Positions 11,758-19,933 of a stretch of DNA of 64,000 nucleotides are shown piece by piece. The notes under the pieces are model-generated. The model searched no databases, had not been told where the DNA came from, and was given only the letters and a program-made list of their open reading frames with translations. The stretch covers positions 744,001 to 808,000 of the forward strand of contig NZ_CP093442.1 of the NCBI RefSeq assembly GCF_022814725.1, read 5' to 3'. Made by a program: the position numbers and the translations under genes. Every line of letters begins with the position of its first letter. The first letter of the stretch is position 1. The DNA comes from Bdellovibrio reynosensis (GTDB lineage: Bacteria > Bdellovibrionota > Bdellovibrionia > Bdellovibrionales > Bdellovibrionaceae).

Positions 11758-13062
11758 ATGAAATCATGGCTTTTATTTTTTCTATCACTCATGCCCGTCT
11801 TTTCGTGGGCAGCCAGCGCGACTGAATGGAGTCTTAATTTAGATTCAAAAATAGAAAGCACCTATTTTCCTGAAATTTATGGCTACGATACCAATCGCGA
11901 GCTTTATAAATTGGAACTAAACCCTATCTATAAATGGAAATACAAAGATTCCTTGCGCTTATATTTAAAGCCGACACTGATCGCTAATCCCAATAACAAC
12001 TCTGAAGAAGAAAGATATTTCGCTGACCCCACCGAAGCCTACCTACGCTACAAAGGCGAAACCGCCTCTGTGCAAGTGGGCTACACGATTTTTTCTTGGG
12101 GAGTCACGGATGGCTATAATCCCTTAGACGTGATTAACTCTAAACAATACTTTGATCCTTTGCACAGCCGAAAACTTGGGGCACCCGTTGTTGATTATTC
12201 TCAGACCTTCGGTTCTTGGGATATTGAGCTGGTCTATATTCCGCAAAACCGTGGCGCCATATTGCCAGGAACAGAAAGCCGGTGGCTGCCGCGGGAAATT
12301 TATGTTCCTGAAGCTCCGGAAAATGACTTGGTCTTAGCTTTGCCCGATCGCCCCCGATATAAGTATGGAACTGAAACAGAACTTGATGATGCTTTAAAAA
12401 ACAATGCTGCTTTTCGCGTGCAGTATCACGGAGCTATAGTAGATGTGGGTTTAAGTTTCTATGAAGGCGTTGCTGCTTTTCCCATAATTCAGCCTGTGGT
12501 TACAGGAGACGTCATCGAGGTCTCGCCCAAAACAGTCCTCGCAGTGGCCCCCGATATCACTTTAAACACCCGCAACTATCGAACTCGTCATGCGGGCCTT
12601 GCATTTACTAGCAATCAATTTGGATTCCTTTTTAAACTTGCTAGCGCCTACAACCAAAGCTTAGGAACAGACCCTTACTTACCCGGTTGGAGTAACGACA
12701 GTGTTGTCGGCTTCGAAAAACAATTTAGTTTTGATAAAGGTCTTTTAGTTGCAGTCCTTCAGCATTCTTTCACGAGATCGCAAAAAGAAAGCGAATCCAA
12801 TCTTTCCGTGAGTGAGATTTTCCGAAGTGCTTGGATGATGGGGTTTAGACTAAGTTGGGCTGAAGTTTGGACTTATTCCTTATCCGGCTTGTATGATAGT
12901 AACCACGGCAGTAACTTTTATGAAGTCGGATTGAGTCGTCGTTTCTTTGATCGCTGGGTCTTGGGAGTCTCAGGAAGTTATATTGCAGGTGAAAGCGATA
13001 CTCCTTTGGGAGTGTACGAAAAGAATGATTCCTTCAGTATGAATCTATCCGCTTCGTTTTAA
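11758..13062 (+). CDS. Outer-membrane beta-barrel protein, DUF1302-like
   Basis: 434 residues with a signal peptide ending near SWAASA, many alternating aromatic strands, and a C-terminal strand SFSMNLSASF with terminal Phe, as in outer-membrane barrels. The segment FSWGVTDGYNPLDVINS resembles the conserved part of DUF1302 porin-like proteins. In many proteobacteria these sit beside RND/MMPL permeases with LolA-like partners, and such a gene lies at 14725, so a shared export pathway for a lipid-like substrate is an attractive inference. The ribosome binding site is weak. It shares a bidirectional terminator with the convergent gene. Confidence 0.75.
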   Translation: MKSWLLFFLSLMPVFSWAASATEWSLNLDSKIESTYFPEIYGYDTNRELYKLELNPIYKWKYKDSLRLYLKPTLIANPNNNSEEERYFADPTEAYLRYKGETASVQVGYTIFSWGVTDGYNPLDVINSKQYFDPLHSRKLGAPVVDYSQTFGSWDIELVYIPQNRGAILPGTESRWLPREIYVPEAPENDLVLALPDRPRYKYGTETELDDALKNNAAFRVQYHGAIVDVGLSFYEGVAAFPIIQPVVTGDVIEVSPKTVLAVAPDITLNTRNYRTRHAGLAFTSNQFGFLFKLASAYNQSLGTDPYLPGWSNDSVVGFEKQFSFDKGLLVAVLQHSFTRSQKESESNLSVSEIFRSAWMMGFRLSWAEVWTYSLSGLYDSNHGSNFYEVGLSRRFFDRWVLGVSGSYIAGESDTPLGVYEKNDSFSMNLSASF

Positions 13063-13100
13063 AAAAAAAAAGGAGCCTTTTTACGGGCTCCTTCTATTTA
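13061..13100. terminator. Bidirectional intrinsic terminator
   Basis: AAGGAGCC and GGCTCCTT form an 8-bp stem with an A run before and a T-rich run after. It lies between two convergent genes and can serve both; the uninterrupted T run is on the minus strand. Confidence 0.8.
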
Positions 13101-13119
13101 GGTCTTAATATTTTTTCTA

Positions 13120-14637
13120 TTACAGATTTAACTCTAGAACTAAATCTTGCGACGAGCTCGAAAGAACCTTTTTCACTTTTAAAGACAAACCTTCTGTTAG
13201 CGGAATATCTGGAATCGCCACAGAAACAGTTTTTCCCCAAAGTCCACCTACGATCTTATCGCGAATCGTGGACGCCTTAAATTTACGGTTCGCCCCGTAT
13301 CTGCTTAAGTAAGACGGTTCCCAGTATGGAGTCAGACCCATAGTTGGATTTACAAAAGTAGCTTGTGCTTTTGAATTTTCAACTTTCAAAGTCACCTTTG
13401 AGGTCAACGGAATAGCAAAGTTCATAAATGGAACGTATTGCGATCCTTTAGGTGCCTGCATCTTAGAAAGGAAGGTTCCCTTCACTTGGTAAGACATCCC
13501 TGATCCATCCACTGTCACATCTTTAGATGAAAAAACTGAGAAAAGGAATTTATCGTAACGAGAATAGCTCATCAACTCAGGCCATACAAACCACTGAGCA
13601 AAACGAGAAGCCATAACATTAGAAAAGCCAGGAAGGTTGTCTGAAGTTACTTTATGCAACCAAGAGTTCGCTGAATAGGCGTGGCTAACAACTTCTTTAA
13701 TAAAGTCTTTAGGCAGACGTAGGCTAGCTACCGTCGCGTCGGCGAAGGCTTCTTCTTGGGAAAGATTAAGCACTTTGACTTCACTATCAGCCGCCTGCAA
13801 GAAATCAATAATCAAGCGACCTTTAACTAAAGCACCTTGATTAGCAACGTCTTTAAACTCATCAACCTTCATAGTGACCTTGATATCAGGTCGAGCTACG
13901 ACCAATTGACGACTTTGTGAGAAATCGAATTGATATCCACCTAAATAGTCTTGCACGTACTTTTTAATTAATTCTTTTTGCGGCTCGACGAAACGTGCAG
14001 AGTCGTTGGCAATCTTATTGATTTCATCTCTGATCACCGTTTCAAAACCCTGGGCACCCTCACATTGCATCCCTTGAGCGGTCCAGCTGCCCGGAAGCCA
14101 TGAGATATTCACAGACTGAAGTTGAGTTCCTGCCGTAGAATTTTCTAGCGACGGCGAAATCATCATCGAAAAATTTCCCTGGCCTGGATTCAAAGATAAC
14201 AAAACGTTTTTACAGCTTGCTTGAATTCTAAAACGTCCGATAACGCCGCTGACTTCCCGTTCGACTATAGTGTCGACAGAAACTTCAGACATTTGAATTT
14301 CTGCTTCCAATTTTTTTGAACTCAACTGCAACACGGTGGCGTTCGGATCAAGTGAAGGTTTCTCTAAAAACGTTTTCACTTTCATTGTGATGTTTTTAAA
14401 TTTCACCGGCACTGCTTGAGCCATCACCTCTTGATCAGGAAATTGCCAATTTCCCTGAAACTCTTTGTTCATGAGGGATTCCCATTTTTTGTTGATCAAA
14501 TTTTGTTGGAATTGTCTAGGTATCGACAGTTGAAATTCTGAATTAATTTGCGAAACTGAAAATGCATGCGAGCATGTAAAGAATGTGAATAGTGCAGCCG
14601 AAAGGCTTTTTATATTTTGCAAACAAGTTTTTCTCAT
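13120..14637 (-). CDS. Large exported protein of unknown function
   Basis: About 505 residues with a signal peptide (MRKTCLQNIKSLSAALFTFFTCSHAF). The start is set at ATG 14637, which has GGGA 6 nt upstream, instead of ATG 14655, which has none. The protein seems to contain two related halves, each opening with a similar phrase (LSIPRQFQQNLINKKW near residue 30; LRLPKDFIKEVVSHAY near residue 300) followed by long beta segments. This is reminiscent of TULIP-type lipid-binding proteins, but the similarity is weak and only inferred. It is divergent from the RND-LolA gene, with 87 bases between, consistent with a periplasmic lipid-handling partner. Confidence 0.75.
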   Translation of the reverse strand: MRKTCLQNIKSLSAALFTFFTCSHAFSVSQINSEFQLSIPRQFQQNLINKKWESLMNKEFQGNWQFPDQEVMAQAVPVKFKNITMKVKTFLEKPSLDPNATVLQLSSKKLEAEIQMSEVSVDTIVEREVSGVIGRFRIQASCKNVLLSLNPGQGNFSMMISPSLENSTAGTQLQSVNISWLPGSWTAQGMQCEGAQGFETVIRDEINKIANDSARFVEPQKELIKKYVQDYLGGYQFDFSQSRQLVVARPDIKVTMKVDEFKDVANQGALVKGRLIIDFLQAADSEVKVLNLSQEEAFADATVASLRLPKDFIKEVVSHAYSANSWLHKVTSDNLPGFSNVMASRFAQWFVWPELMSYSRYDKFLFSVFSSKDVTVDGSGMSYQVKGTFLSKMQAPKGSQYVPFMNFAIPLTSKVTLKVENSKAQATFVNPTMGLTPYWEPSYLSRYGANRKFKASTIRDKIVGGLWGKTVSVAIPDIPLTEGLSLKVKKVLSSSSQDLVLELNL

Positions 14638-14724
14638 CGTGTTTCCCATCATCATGTTTATAAGATACGGCGCTATTGAGTTTTTCTAAAGGGACAAATT
14701 TAAAAAAGATCGAAAGAAGACATC

Positions 14725-17700
14725 ATGATGAAGAAATCTAAATCACCAGGGATGAATTTTCCTAAATCTGTAAAAAGACTTTCCATTTCTACTCTCCTAT
14801 TTGTATTTGCAATGACCGTGTTAAGTCTTTTTGCTTTACCTAAGTTGCAGACTCAGTACAGCTTAAAACAATTTCTTCCTGCGGATAACCCGCTTTTGAA
14901 GAAAGATGAGAACGTGCGACAGTTGTTTCAACTTTCTGAAGCTCAACCGTTCATCATTACAGCAAAAGTTTCTGACGACCAAAAGACCTGGTTTGAAAAA
15001 GATAAGATTCAAAGCTTAGAAAGACTCACAGATCTTCTTGCGCATTTTCCTGGCGTGAAGAACACATTAAGTCTGGCTACTGTTCAAGGCGCTATTAATA
15101 ATGAAGATGGCTTAAGCGTCGGGCCTCTTTTAAAAACTTTGCCACAGGAAAAATGGCAGGCCGAAACAGTGAGCAATCCGTTGATCTCCCCGACTTTGAT
15201 TTCAAAAGACGGAAAGACGGCTTCGGTTATTGTGAATATCAAATCCTTGAACACTCAGGATCTTTTAAAATTGCGCCAGAATTTACAAGTGACTGCGATG
15301 GCCTCTGTGCCATTTGCGCAGGTTGAAATCGGCGGAACTCCAGCGGTGCAGACTGATGTCGGCGTATTACTGCAAACTGAAATTAGAAACTTCGTTGTAC
15401 TTGGTTTCTTTGCGTGCTTTATTGTTTTAGGCTTGGTGTTTGCAAACTGGTCGCCATTGATTGCAGCTTTCATAGTTATTATTTGTGCGAACATCATTGT
15501 ATTAGCAGTAATGGCTTTAGCAGGATATCCTTTCTCGGTTCTATCTAGTACTATTCCAATTCTGACCACCGTGGATGTGGTGTCGCTGATAATCCATTCG
15601 CTTCTTCGCTATACGGAAGAACGAAAAAACCAACCCCACTTAAGTCACCATCAGCTGGTAAACTACACTTTCAAAGTTTTGCTGGGACCAAACTTGATCG
15701 CATCAACGACGACGATGATTGGTTTCTTGGCATTATTAACGGTGAAAGTGCCTCTTATTAAAGATTATGGCTTAACAGCTTCCATCGCGATTATGCTGGG
15801 TTGGCTTGTAACGACTGTGACATTGTTCCCTCTTTTGCATTTCTTAAACCCACCGAAGGCAAGACAATGGGCATGGAGCAAAGCGCGTTGGGGTCTTTAT
15901 TTATTCCGTCGTTCTGGGGTGTGGGCTTTCTTGATTGTGCTTGTGTGTACGGCACTTGCTTTCAAAGGCCAGACTCTATCTTGGTCAGCTCGTTTGTTTG
16001 ATGATCTGCCAATGAATCATCAGGTTCGTTTATCAACAGAAACAATTGATAAAGAACTGGGCGGAATGATTCCCGTGGATATTTCCATTAAAGGACAACC
16101 TGATTCTTGGAATGATCCAGCGCTATTAGGTAAATTGGATCAGCTATTAACTGATTTAAGAAAAATCGAGGGTGTAGGTAGCGTTGTAGGTCTTCCTGAC
16201 CTTGTGGCTGCAGCCAACATTCATCACAACCGTTTGCCAGCAAGTCGTTCGTCGACCGCCGAGGTGTTCTTCCTTTATTCTTTATCTAGCAATAGTCCTT
16301 TAAAGAACTTCTTAAATACGGACTCTTCAAACACGCGTGTGTCGGTTCGTACTCAAGATTTACCAGGAAATAAATTGCAGGAAGTGGTTTCAAAAATTGA
16401 AGCAACTACTTTAAGCAGCTTCCCTGAAATGAAAGTGGAATTAACAGGTATGGGTCGCACGATCCATCATCTAAATAATGAACTTTCCCATGAACTGATC
16501 TTCGGGTTCTGGCAATCTATGGCGGCTATCTGCTTGGTGTTGGTATTTGTCTTTAGATCTTTGCGTTGGGCCTTGGTGGCTTGTATTCCGAATCTAGTTC
16601 CACCGGCAGCGCTTTTAGGCTTCTTGGCGCTTTCTGAAACTCCAATCAAACCAAGTGTGGCGATTATTTTCTCTATCGCTTTAGGTCTGGCGTTTAACAA
16701 CACTGTTTATCTGTTAGAGCGACTGAAGTTGATTCAGAAAACATCCAAGTCTAAAACTCTTGATATCGAAAAGGCCCTATGGCGCGAAGGCAATCCTTGT
16801 CTAATTGCAAGTTTAACTTTGCTAGCGGGATTCTCGGTGTTTATGGCGTCTTACTTTGCGATGAACCGCATCTTTGGATTCTACATGCTGCTATCAATGG
16901 CAGCTGGACTTGTGGGAGATTTGATTCTTCTACCAACGATGTTGAAAAGTTGCCCATGGCTATTGACTTCAGTACCTTGGAAAAAGGAGAGAGTTATGGC
17001 CACAGCTGCTTCTTTATTAATCGCGTTCTTTATTTCTTTTGCTCCAATGAAAACCTACGCCCAGGAACCTGCGGCGGGTGCTGTCACGGTTGAACAAATC
17101 GGCGAAAGAATGAGTGCAAATCTTAAAACCAAGGATGAAGAATTCAACACCAAGATGAAAATCATCGAGGCTGATGGATCCAGCAAAGACCGCGAAATGA
17201 AAATTTGGCGTTTAAGTCTTGGCAAGAAAGAACACTATCTTTTAGTGCGCATGCAAAAGCCCCAAGATCTTAAGGGAACAGCTTTGCTAGCGACTCTTAA
17301 AGGCGAACAAGAAGAAAAGTGGATTTACCTTCCATCGACCAAACAAACTCGTCGTTTAACGGGCGAAAGTGGTCAAGGTGGAATTCTGGGATCAGAACTT
17401 GCGGTGGAAGATTTTGATTTCAATCGCGAGCAAGGCGCAAAGAACGAGCTAAAAAAACAGATCGAAGTTAAAGGGAAAAAGTACTTCGTGGTTGAAAGTG
17501 ACGTGAATGCAACTTCGGCGAATTATTCTAAAGTTGTGAGCTATATCTCTGCTGATGATTACTTGCCAGTGAAAGCGGAATGTTATGACAAGCAAGGTAA
17601 GCAGATGAAAGTCCTAGATATCACTGGCTATAAAAAGGTCGGCGGTAATAAGTTTCGTGCTGGCAAAATCAAAATCCGTAACTTGCAAAACAAACGCGGC

Positions 17701-17784
17701 ACTGAAATTTTAATTTCCCAAGTGAAATTAGATCAAGGCTTAAAACCCACGCGTTTCACACCAAAAGCTTTAGCCGAAGACTAA
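14725..17784 (+). CDS. RND/MMPL permease fused to LolA-like domain
   Basis: 1019 residues. Residues about 15-755 form an RND-type permease: one N-terminal membrane helix, a periplasmic loop, five or six helices (about 220-385), a helix near 395, a second loop and a last helix cluster (about 620-755). Residues 787-1019 match the LolA-like 'outer membrane lipoprotein-sorting protein' domain, with KGTALLATL, KWIYLPSTKQTRRL and a final beta region. In most genomes these are separate adjacent genes. The join contains a signal-peptide-like stretch (residues 758-786, ending TYAQE) and an in-frame ATG with its own AAGGAG. The function is probably energised extraction of a lipid or lipoprotein from the inner membrane; the substrate is unknown. 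Confidence 0.88.
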   Translation: MMKKSKSPGMNFPKSVKRLSISTLLFVFAMTVLSLFALPKLQTQYSLKQFLPADNPLLKKDENVRQLFQLSEAQPFIITAKVSDDQKTWFEKDKIQSLERLTDLLAHFPGVKNTLSLATVQGAINNEDGLSVGPLLKTLPQEKWQAETVSNPLISPTLISKDGKTASVIVNIKSLNTQDLLKLRQNLQVTAMASVPFAQVEIGGTPAVQTDVGVLLQTEIRNFVVLGFFACFIVLGLVFANWSPLIAAFIVIICANIIVLAVMALAGYPFSVLSSTIPILTTVDVVSLIIHSLLRYTEERKNQPHLSHHQLVNYTFKVLLGPNLIASTTTMIGFLALLTVKVPLIKDYGLTASIAIMLGWLVTTVTLFPLLHFLNPPKARQWAWSKARWGLYLFRRSGVWAFLIVLVCTALAFKGQTLSWSARLFDDLPMNHQVRLSTETIDKELGGMIPVDISIKGQPDSWNDPALLGKLDQLLTDLRKIEGVGSVVGLPDLVAAANIHHNRLPASRSSTAEVFFLYSLSSNSPLKNFLNTDSSNTRVSVRTQDLPGNKLQEVVSKIEATTLSSFPEMKVELTGMGRTIHHLNNELSHELIFGFWQSMAAICLVLVFVFRSLRWALVACIPNLVPPAALLGFLALSETPIKPSVAIIFSIALGLAFNNTVYLLERLKLIQKTSKSKTLDIEKALWREGNPCLIASLTLLAGFSVFMASYFAMNRIFGFYMLLSMAAGLVGDLILLPTMLKSCPWLLTSVPWKKERVMATAASLLIAFFISFAPMKTYAQEPAAGAVTVEQIGERMSANLKTKDEEFNTKMKIIEADGSSKDREMKIWRLSLGKKEHYLLVRMQKPQDLKGTALLATLKGEQEEKWIYLPSTKQTRRLTGESGQGGILGSELAVEDFDFNREQGAKNELKKQIEVKGKKYFVVESDVNATSANYSKVVSYISADDYLPVKAECYDKQGKQMKVLDITGYKKVGGNKFRAGKIKIRNLQNKRGTEILISQVKLDQGLKPTRFTPKALAED
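16984..16998 (+). promoter_or_regulatory. Internal ribosome binding site and in-frame ATG
   Basis: AAGGAG (16984..16989) lies 6 nt before an ATG (16996) that is in frame with the RND-LolA ORF (codon 758). The protein starting there would have a perfect signal peptide followed by the LolA-like domain. This suggests that the LolA-like part may also be made separately. Confidence 0.5.
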
Positions 17785-18266
17785 AATACGTCTTTAATTT
17801 TTTCTGTTGGGAGCTGATAAGCAATCGCTCCCAATTCTTTTAGATAAATCGCTAAAATTTGATCGTCCGATAAATCCGGGAATTCTTGCTTCATCGTTAG
17901 CAGCATCATTTTTTCTGCTTGCTGCAAAAGTTTACCGACCTCTCCCCCACCGTTTTTTTCTAAAAAGAATAAAACGAAAAGAAATGGCATTTTACGGATA
18001 TCCATTAAAATAATCTTAAGTCGTTCTTGCAGGCTGGTGGTCTTGACTCTTTCCACATTAAAGAAGTGGGCGATCACGAACTTGTAGGCTTCCTGCAGAG
18101 CTGATTCTTTTTCTTTACCGAAGTAATAATAGATCAAGGACCTAGTCACCCCTGATTCCCGGGAAATTTCAGAAAGGGTCCACTGAAGATGACCTTGGGC
18201 CACTTCCATTTTTAGAATGGCGTTACATACCGCAAAATAGATATCTTCTTTGGATTGAGTCGACAT
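17781..18266 (-). CDS. TetR family transcriptional regulator
   Basis: 161 residues. The N-terminal helix-turn-helix is TLSEISRESGVTRSLIYYYFGK (about residues 30-51), with the TetR-typical aromatic end of the recognition helix. The C-terminal half is a short helical ligand domain, near the short end for the family. Its stop overlaps the stop of the RND-LolA gene by 4 bases (tail to tail), and it is divergent from the GH3 operon with 143 bases between, so it probably controls that operon and perhaps itself. Ligand unknown; a lipid or acyl compound would suit the neighbours. Confidence 0.9.
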   Translation of the reverse strand: MSTQSKEDIYFAVCNAILKMEVAQGHLQWTLSEISRESGVTRSLIYYYFGKEKESALQEAYKFVIAHFFNVERVKTTSLQERLKIILMDIRKMPFLFVLFFLEKNGGGEVGKLLQQAEKMMLLTMKQEFPDLSDDQILAIYLKELGAIAYQLPTEKIKDVF

Positions 18267-18409
18267 TTGGCAATTTTGACAAATACTTCCGTTTTATGTC
18301 AATGGAAGAGGTCGTTTTCGACAGATTTGGGCTTTTTCTGTCAATGGGTTCTCGGGACACCTGGAATTACTTGCAATAGATTCTTCTTCACACAGAAGGA
18401 GACCTATTT
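18267..18409. promoter_or_regulatory. Divergent control region, candidate TetR operators
   Basis: Between the TetR gene and the GH3 operon there is an inverted pair TTGACA...TGTCAA (15-base spacer, ending at 18302), a direct repeat TGTCAATGG at 18297..18305 and 18339..18347, and TCGACA motifs near 18260 and 18318. The recurring TGTCRA/TYGACA core is a reasonable operator candidate. AGAAGGAGACC precedes the GH3 start. Confidence 0.4.
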
Positions 18410-19933
18410 ATGTTTGCAGATTCCATGATTCACAGCTTAGGGCAAAGATATTTAAAGACCTACTCCCAATACATGAGCACCGGCCACCAGGATCTTTTAG
18501 CGAAACAGGAAAGCAATTTCCATAGCTTAAAAAGATCACTGACCGGGACGCGCCTTTATAAGGACCTGCGCCTTTCCCACATTCATAACTACGAAGAGTA
18601 CATTCAACATGTCCCAGTATGGAATTACGATGATTACGCTCCGTATGTAGATATGATCGCAGCAGGTCACGACGACATTCTATTTAAAGATGAAGTTGCG
18701 CACTTCGGTCTTTCTTCTGGGACTTCAGGTAAAGACAGCAAAAGAGTTCCATATAACGAAAAAATGATTCGTATGTTTTTAAAATCTCAAAAGCGCATCG
18801 CTTCTCGGTTAAGCGAATTAGAACCAGCCATCAACTTTCTTAAAGTAGCCAGACTTACTTTTGGTTCTGATCCCTACGTCTATAGCCATAATGGTTTTAA
18901 ATTTGGATATATTTCCGGGATTCTTTCGACTCGCATTCCAAAAGCGTTAAAGAAAAATACTTATCCTTCCCAGGAAGTTTTAACGATTTCTAACTGGGAT
19001 AAAAAAATAGACATGCTTATTGAGGAGTCTTTAAAGCAAGACATCCATGTTGTTAGTGGTATTCCCACTTACATCATCAGTATTTTTGAAGCGATCTTAG
19101 AAAAAACGGGTGAAGAAAATATCGCAGCTATTTGGCCGAATCTAAAAGTTTTCGTTTACGCGGCTACACCAATTAAACAATACCAAGAACGCATCGACCG
19201 TTTGGTTGGTCATGAGCTTAATTATTACGGAGTTTACGCAGCGACTGAAGCGGCCGTAGGTCTTCCTTACGAAAAATATCAAAATGGCAGACAACGCTAT
19301 TTTTTAAATCCTGATCTGATTTATTCTTTTACCCCTGTTGAAGGCGAAAAAGTACAGGTGGGCCTTAAAGATATTAAAATGGGTGTAAGTTACTATATCA
19401 ACATCGGTACACCTAACGGCTTTGTTCATTATGCGATGAAGGATGTTATTAGCTTTGAAGAATACAATGGCGACCTTGTCTTTGAATTTGTGGGCAGAAA
19501 AAGCACCGGCATGAACTTAGCTGCTGAAAAGGTCAGTGATGATGAAATCTTAGACTGCTATATAAATGCTAAAACTATTAATAACGTGGATTTGCGTCAT
19601 TTCTTCTTATCGCCGACTTTAGGCAATGATGGTAAAGCGTCTTACCTTTGGACATTGTTTGTTCCATCGAACACTACAGTAAATGAAGAAGCCCTGGCGC
19701 AGTCGTTAGATAAAAAAATGATGGAACTGAATGGTGACTATTCGGACTGCCGTGAAGTGGGCGTTTTAGGTCCAGCGAAGGTCACAGTTATTAATGCGGA
19801 TCGCTTGCAAGCTTACTTTGAACAAAACCGCAGTCGCGGTCAGTTTAAATTAAAAACCACTTTTGAAACGGCAGAAGAATATCTGCGCTTCTTAAGCCAA
19901 AACATCGATAATACCCAAGGAGCCCTGCAATGA
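18410..19933 (+). CDS. GH3 family acyl-acid amido synthetase
   Basis: 507 residues of the GH3 branch of adenylate-forming enzymes, which activate a carboxylic acid with ATP and join it to an amino acid. Visible motifs: the phosphate-binding loop SSGTSGKDSKRVP (residues 103-115), YYGVYAATEAAVG near residue 272, and FEFVGRKSTGMNLAAEKVSD near residues 358-378. Length agrees with bacterial members. It has no signal peptide. The stop overlaps the LysE gene (ATGA), so the two are translationally coupled. In plants GH3 makes jasmonoyl- and auxin-amino acids; the bacterial substrates are mostly unknown. Together with the exporter and Ntn-hydrolase downstream, I infer production of an N-acyl amino acid. 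Confidence 0.9.
   Translation: MFADSMIHSLGQRYLKTYSQYMSTGHQDLLAKQESNFHSLKRSLTGTRLYKDLRLSHIHNYEEYIQHVPVWNYDDYAPYVDMIAAGHDDILFKDEVAHFGLSSGTSGKDSKRVPYNEKMIRMFLKSQKRIASRLSELEPAINFLKVARLTFGSDPYVYSHNGFKFGYISGILSTRIPKALKKNTYPSQEVLTISNWDKKIDMLIEESLKQDIHVVSGIPTYIISIFEAILEKTGEENIAAIWPNLKVFVYAATPIKQYQERIDRLVGHELNYYGVYAATEAAVGLPYEKYQNGRQRYFLNPDLIYSFTPVEGEKVQVGLKDIKMGVSYYINIGTPNGFVHYAMKDVISFEEYNGDLVFEFVGRKSTGMNLAAEKVSDDEILDCYINAKTINNVDLRHFFLSPTLGNDGKASYLWTLFVPSNTTVNEEALAQSLDKKMMELNGDYSDCREVGVLGPAKVTVINADRLQAYFEQNRSRGQFKLKTTFETAEEYLRFLSQNIDNTQGALQ

Follow-up and report, generated by a model that had tools for sequence, protein, structure and literature searches.

How a bacterium might encode a membrane pump and the periplasmic partner of that pump in a single fused gene, yet leave the partner free, is the question raised by an open reading frame (ORF) in a 64,000-nucleotide stretch of the Bdellovibrio reynosensis genome (NZ_CP093442.1, positions 744,001 to 808,000; henceforth the window). 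The host genome is a single contig of 3.58 Mb, and its nearest named relatives place it in the predatory genus Bdellovibrio. The ORF (14725-17784, plus strand; 1019 residues from an ATG start) joins an RND/MMPL permease, a signal-peptide-like segment and a LolA-like domain. That these lie in one frame had been proposed in a first-pass annotation made from the sequence alone, and the ORF and its Pfam matches bear this out. Our preferred explanation, to which we assign a probability of roughly 55%, is that the product is one precursor from which the carrier is cut, that an internal start supplies extra carrier in Bdellovibrio, and that both serve a lipid-type export process.

Architecture of the fused ORF

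The permease portion (residues 1-745; 14725-16959, plus strand) is recognized by Pfam and NCBIfam profiles, with the MMPL family (PF03176) matching in two stretches at 84.5 bits against a gathering cut-off of 20.5. Scores for the HAE3 transporter family TIGR00921 (163.5 bits, NCBIfam cut-off 351.9), HpnN (TIGR03480; 40.8 bits, cut-off 751.85) and BstA (NF045600; 14 bits, cut-off 1400) lie below the respective thresholds. A low-confidence structural model (predicted local distance difference test score, pLDDT, 42) contains 12 helices fitting membrane helices in this portion, at about residues 12-36, 205-238, 244-265, 276-302, 308-337 and 343-373 for the first six and 399-427, 576-610, 613-637, 643-673, 691-713 and 715-742 for the remainder. 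The last helix is followed by a stretch rich in Lys, then by a hydrophobic segment and finally by a short polar tail. The signal-peptide-like segment spans residues 758-779 (16996-17061, plus strand), and the proposed signal peptidase I site lies at Ala779|Gln780 (TYA|QE). The TYAQE string that had drawn attention to the join occupies residues 777-781 (17053-17067) and does stand at the end of a signal-peptide-like stretch. Beyond it, residues 780-1019 (17062-17784, plus strand) form the LolA-like domain, the proposed mature periplasmic carrier; LolA_like (PF17131) matches residues 837-1017 at 145.6 bits against a gathering cut-off of 30, and the domain also matches PDB entries 3bk5 (E 5.8e-23) and 9tp6 (E 1e-18).

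Phyletic distribution and history of the fusion

Orthologues, defined by a permease match above 300 bits, were found in 62 of the 140 genomes of the order that were searched. Permease and carrier share one ORF in 53 of these 62, are split in eight (G028, G071, G074, G075, G091, G130, G131 and G132), and in one case at a contig edge (G098) the state was counted as undetermined. Within the genus the gene is present in 22 of 24 genomes without internal stops, the copy at locus L017 being cut by a contig end. In one fused member (L040, genome G039) the frame is about 190 codons longer at its 5' end (1221 codons from stop to stop), the extension being putatively coding. The first-pass annotation had suggested comparing split and fused orthologues, on the reasoning that a stop codon or frameshift at the join would expose the fusion as a sequencing error; no such pattern emerged, and with 53 of 62 orthologue-bearing genomes fused and the genus copies free of internal stops, both sequencing error and pseudogene are ruled out. 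Its remark that the two proteins are usually encoded separately holds for plasmid-borne relatives, which are annotated as two genes, but not for this order, where most are fused, and fusions occur elsewhere too.

A tree of 60 permeases contains 53 fused and seven labelled split; one of the latter, L075, owes its label only to a contig end and is the case counted as undetermined. The tree omits the duplicates L026-L029, the window copies (L001, W), the distant L024 and the partial L065, L066 and L069. On this tree the state changes between fused and split at least three times. At four loci the split genes lie in tandem, the LolA start overlapping the MMPL stop in three of them and lying about 10 nt beyond it at the remaining one, and the LolA genes at these loci encode a signal-peptide-like N-terminus. 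Because the start overlaps or adjoins the stop in this way, the simplest history would be that of a coupled operon that fused and perhaps re-split later.

A conserved cleavage-type motif at the join

Each of the 53 fused ORFs has a hydrophobic segment at the join. In 49 of them the core is followed by a small-x-Ala motif (Ala at the third to tenth residue past the core, with A, V, S, T, G, L or I two residues before it), as against an average of 29.8 and a maximum of 40 in 1000 rounds of shuffled tails. Taken alone the motif is not decisive. In the genus alignment, A779 is invariant (21/21) and Q780 and P774 are each kept in 19 of 21 sequences, in contrast to the variable or gapped residues 775-778 and 781-787; such retention of Ala, Gln and Pro amid variable residues would not be needed by a mere tether. 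The cleavage-type motif is found across the order, including fusions that have no usable internal start.

A candidate nested translation start in Bdellovibrio

The Shine-Dalgarno-like AAGGAG within the frame (16984-16989, plus strand; Lys754-Glu755) is followed by six bases (AGAGTT) and an in-frame ATG (16996-16998, plus strand; Met758), just as the first-pass annotation had read it. This ATG is the candidate start of a 262-residue LolA-like precursor. Codon counts were made on 21 of the 22 genus orthologues, as L023, only 58% identical, had been set apart beforehand. AAGGAG encodes Lys754-Glu755 in 19 of these 21 sequences; elsewhere in these genes it encodes 3 of 100 Lys-Glu pairs. Of 43 Lys columns, K754 alone reaches a frequency of at least 0.9 for AAG, and of 27 Glu columns E755 alone does so for GAG. 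M758 and A759 are invariant in all 21. Counted over the whole genus, the internal ATG is present in 21 of 22 members and the exact AAGGAG in 19 of 22. L023, which has neither, is nested within the genus on the permease tree and has lost both elements together; it nevertheless keeps SNA|K at the join despite this loss and that of most of the conserved island described below. A copy from the sister genus (L030) carries both AAGGAG and ATG.

When Shine-Dalgarno strength was scored as pairing with the 16S tail and ranked against same-width windows of the same ORF, the internal start fell within the best 5% in 20 of the 21 genus sequences, and for the remaining 32 fused ORFs it did so in 8 against an expectation of 1.6; these 32 include L023, which fails the test, and L030. 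Such conservation at the nucleotide level of both Shine-Dalgarno and start codon in 21 genus members, but not order-wide, points to an in-frame internal gene start that is, as judged from these alignments, a lineage-specific device. As 14 of the 32 other fusions have no start with any Shine-Dalgarno pairing at the join, the cut site is, on the same comparative evidence, the more general of the two separating devices. The first-pass annotation had posed cleavage of a polyprotein and a second start as alternatives; the evolutionary evidence supports both together, the cut motif across the order and the start signals within the genus.

An island of synonymous conservation upstream of the start

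The strongest synonymous-site conservation in the gene is found at codons 731-743 (16915-16953, plus strand), 43-81 nt upstream of the ATG at 16996, and its level was reached in none of 100,000 draws from same-residue columns. It comprises two blocks, GATTTGATTCTT (16918-16929) and TTGAAAAGTTG (16942-16952), with freer positions between them; the blocks are 12 nt apart. L023 lacks most of the island, whereas L010, L014 and L030 have degenerate versions and yet retain the start, so the tie between island and internal start is suggestive rather than strict. The island is a candidate sense or antisense promoter or regulator site. A promoter matrix built from E. coli frequencies ranked positions 16875 and 16924 first and second of 3007 on the minus strand, and both the sense and the antisense promoter that might be placed in the island are weak candidates. 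Inspection of the island by eye revealed no FliA consensus (TTAAG-N16-CCGATA, as given in an excerpt of PMC3627812), no scan having been made for it. Of the overlapping plus-strand frames near the join, one is interrupted by stops in all 23 sequences and the other in 9 of 23.

Partner genes and contextual associations

Two neighbouring genes recur with the fusion throughout the order. The first (11758-13062, plus strand) encodes a 434-residue outer-membrane-barrel-like protein related to an Acinetobacter porin-like partner and to a DUF1302 protein; the second (13120-14655, minus strand) is divergent and encodes a 511-residue protein with a signal-like N-terminus, which a low-confidence model suggests to be a two-domain TULIP (BPI/LBP/CETP-like) protein. 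Co-occurrence was assessed with thresholds of more than 300 bits for the permease, more than 150 bits for hits of profile A3 and E<=0.001 for profile A2, and weaker profile hits, mostly distant RND, LolA-like or barrel-like proteins, were left uncounted. The permease (62 genomes) shares 59 genomes with the barrel-like protein (63), mostly at the same locus, and 59 with the 511-residue protein (63); all three are present in 57 of the 140 genomes and none of them in 72, counts for which Fisher values overstate independence, as the thresholds were fixed after the hits had been viewed, the profiles were built from these loci and the genomes are related. The genus genomes without the fusion (G002 and G011) are also without the 511-residue protein and, save for a weak hit in G002, the barrel-like protein.

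No Pfam family is matched by the barrel-like protein itself, and among 30 relatives two show weak matches to Wzi (best E 0.0019). The profile of the 434-residue protein matches the 424-residue partner of the fused MMPL-LolA gene of Acinetobacter (hhalign 99.1%) and the DUF1302 protein directly upstream of the MMPL/LolA pair of Haliovirga (97.2%); by analogy with these, the 434-residue protein probably forms a barrel. The locus contains the gene content of an export system of the TOL_3187/3188 and A1S_0116/0117 type, namely RND permease, LolA-like protein and barrel.

For the 511-residue protein no PDB sequence match was found at E 5, and any given Pfam family is matched by at most 1 of 29 relatives (best E 0.0031). 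A three-row model (pLDDT 52.6) has BPI, LBP and CETP as its top PDB matches. With this low-confidence model Foldseek returned 1bp1 at E 2.5e-8 but with a TM-score of only 0.21 to 0.23 and a root mean square deviation (rmsd) of 17.5, while VIA gave a Z of 11.3 with an rmsd of 14.2 over 309 residues covering both domains and, against Der f 7, a Z of 10.6 with an rmsd of 3.5 to 3.9 over 161-169 residues. Cysteines 148 and 198 are invariant in the 29 aligned members, and BPI has a disulphide in the corresponding domain. The bacterial full-length BPI homologue described in the accessible text of Levine 2019 (PMC6791001) is DUF4403, and none of the relatives matched this family in Pfam. The modelled fold makes it possible that 13120-14655 encodes a bacterial two-domain BPI/CETP-like TULIP protein that has no Pfam match.

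Several genomes (G071:C80, G073:C26, G088:C188, G091:C182, G097:C1 and G139:C5) carry a second, distant RND gene with a separate gene for a LolA-like protein close by, together with a barrel-like gene that matches weakly. These loci look like a paralogous, unfused version of the system.

Comparison with known systems

Fusions of this kind are also encountered in the gammaproteobacterium Thalassolituus. TOL_3187 of Thalassolituus oleivorans is a published example, and TOL_3187/TOL_3188 are 42-fold up on n-C28 alkane; the accessible part of that paper does not mention an internal start, a cut site or a TULIP-like protein (PMC6304351). In Acinetobacter baumannii A1S_0116/A1S_0117 belong to the Ac-505 lipopeptide operon, according to the accessible text of two reports (PMC5376624, PMC7997844). 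The Acinetobacter locus in our comparison (L106) was assigned to this operon from its non-ribosomal peptide synthetase (NRPS) context and its 424-residue partner. Like the window, it encodes MMPL and LolA_like domains in one ORF with a signal-like segment, here ending TSHA|DE, and in the same NRPS locus it has an overlapping gene for a 424-residue porin-like protein related to the barrel-like protein of the window. It differs in carrying an extra N-terminal Polyketide_cyc2 domain and in having a linker devoid of Met ahead of the hydrophobic segment (a comparison limited to ATG), and no TULIP-like gene is present among the three ORFs of at least 200 residues listed in the stretch. The sequence containing L106 (NZ_CP077849.1) carries a plasmid label in PLSDB, yet at 3.66 Mb is of chromosome size.

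Pairs of an MMPL gene and an "outer membrane lipoprotein-sorting protein" gene in Pseudoalteromonas (L105), Haliovirga (L107) and Sulfitobacter (L108) show the same domains in the same order, but as two annotated genes, unlike the single gene of the window. In Haliovirga a DUF1302 gene is directly upstream of the split pair, and in Sulfitobacter the split genes overlap by 4 nt and are located after a polyketide synthase gene. MmpL3, HpnN and BstA are members of the RND superfamily with lipid-type cargo; the window's permease matches HpnN and BstA weakly, far under the curated cut-offs, and to our knowledge none of these three proteins has a fused LolA domain. A parallel to the processing proposed here is provided by the cytochrome b/c1 precursor FbcH of Bradyrhizobium, a single translation product that signal peptidase divides into a membrane protein and a periplasmic-side protein. 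The FbcH proteins are unrelated to the permease and carrier of the window, and we know of no internal start in that system. The MMPL-LolA fusion itself is already in print; among the open-licence papers listed in literature searches no report of the nested start, the cut site or the TULIP-like partner was found, nor any description of the Bdellovibrio locus.

Proposed mechanism and alternative explanations

We read the locus as a trans-envelope lipid or lipopeptide exporter, the cleavage, initiation, direction and cargo being what we infer from sequence. Here the RND permease and its periplasmic LolA-like carrier would be encoded as a single precursor. The 12-helix permease probably ends in the cytoplasm, so that the Lys-rich linker and hydrophobic segment could act as an internal signal peptide, and cleavage by signal peptidase I after Ala779 would release the carrier in a 1:1 ratio. 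In Bdellovibrio the in-frame Shine-Dalgarno and ATG would also yield the carrier alone, such that carrier copies might exceed those of the permease. Driven by the proton gradient, the permease would lift a lipid-like substrate to the carrier, which would hand it on, together with the TULIP-like protein, to the outer-membrane barrel. A lipid or lipopeptide cargo is suggested by analogy, on account of the Acinetobacter lipopeptide operon (from the accessible text of PMC5376624 and PMC7997844) and the polyketide synthase neighbour in Sulfitobacter. A fuller version, which we put forward tentatively and with the odds against it, would be a hitherto undescribed four-part Bdellovibrionales lipid exporter of permease, carrier, full-length BPI/CETP-like TULIP protein and barrel, with the one ORF yielding uncut fusion, cleaved carrier and internally started carrier in a ratio set by signals inside the permease gene.

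The scheme of one precursor, a cut site, an added start and export accounts for most of the constraints seen, the island excepted. Several observations weigh against it. The structural model of the full-length fusion (pLDDT 42) is unusable and was excluded from the fold search, and a shorter-range form of the motif test was weaker, being positive at 37 of 53 joins versus 236 of the 579 hydrophobic segments lying elsewhere in these proteins. The 14 fusions devoid of a paired start at the join also count here. No Lys or Arg lies between M758 and the hydrophobic core in any of the 21 genus sequences, whereas a Lys or Arg is found there in all four split LolA genes of the tandem loci; to judge from its sequence, such an n-region should weaken export of the internal-start precursor. 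A sigma-70 consensus scan of 13000-18500 returned 8 sites against a shuffle mean of 9.4, with none in the island. Sense matches to the promoter matrix are weak: the site at 16973, from which RNA would begin inside the Shine-Dalgarno, ranks 2 and that at 16945 (TTGATT-N18-AAAAGT in the window) ranks 10 of 2995 plus-strand positions. A weak antisense sigma-70-like element at 16924 (TTTTCA-N18-TCAAAT), made from the island blocks and present in 19 of 21 sequences, fits about as well. No convincing consensus RNA fold was found at the join in the 21 sequences. Lastly, a different role is proposed by the Thalassolituus authors, in whose view the fused protein delivers the porin to the outer membrane so that alkanes can be taken up (PMC6304351).

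Were the segment at the join left uncut, it would form a thirteenth membrane helix, a tether that keeps the LolA-like domain next to the mouth of the permease; the internal start would then be a remnant of a once separate gene. The hydrophobic segment in 53 of 53 fused ORFs, the several fusions that have no usable internal start, and the prevalence of the fused state in the order, consistent with a benefit from tethering, are all compatible with this. However, a tether has no need of Ala at -1, yet A779 is invariant amid varying neighbours and the motif is enriched order-wide; nor would codon-level retention of AAGGAG be expected in a remnant, and we consider a tether unlikely. The conservation of the Shine-Dalgarno at the codon level, the invariance of Met758-Ala759 in 21 sequences and the placement of the island where a promoter could sit would equally suit separation by internal initiation alone, with the carrier made from ATG 16996 under its own signal peptide and the full-length product minor or unprocessed. 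This we regard as improbable, given that L023 lacks the start, that no such start was found in 14 of the 32 fused ORFs outside the 21, and that the n-region is devoid of Lys and Arg throughout the genus set.

It has also to be asked if there is a second start at all, since AAGGAG might serve to pause translation or to time insertion, or the join might be a regulatory DNA site such as an antisense promoter. AAGGAG does lie directly past the last permease helix, the island upstream is otherwise unexplained, and the minus-strand sigma-70-like element at 16924 ranks 2 of 3007 positions. But an ATG at the usual Shine-Dalgarno spacing and a Met-Ala pair, both invariant in 21 sequences, would be needless for a pause or an antisense promoter, and L023 lost Shine-Dalgarno and ATG together; we judge this explanation very improbable. 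The combination of a cut precursor and a lineage-specific added start remains our preference.

Further observations

The locus offers a natural test of how a pump and its partner can be fused with the partner left free, the material for it being an order-wide cut-site motif, the in-frame start added in one lineage and natural losses for contrast. RND transport is moreover tied here to a bacterial BPI/CETP-like protein; should that fold prove right, TULIP-mediated lipid traffic across the periplasm would become accessible to experiment.

A stand-alone LolA-like paralogue is encoded elsewhere in the window's genome (G000:C1:3275317-3275826). Downstream of the fused ORF, a GH3-family gene (18410-19933) comes after a divergent TetR-like gene; of the 11 large genus loci compared (L078-L088), 4 retain both.

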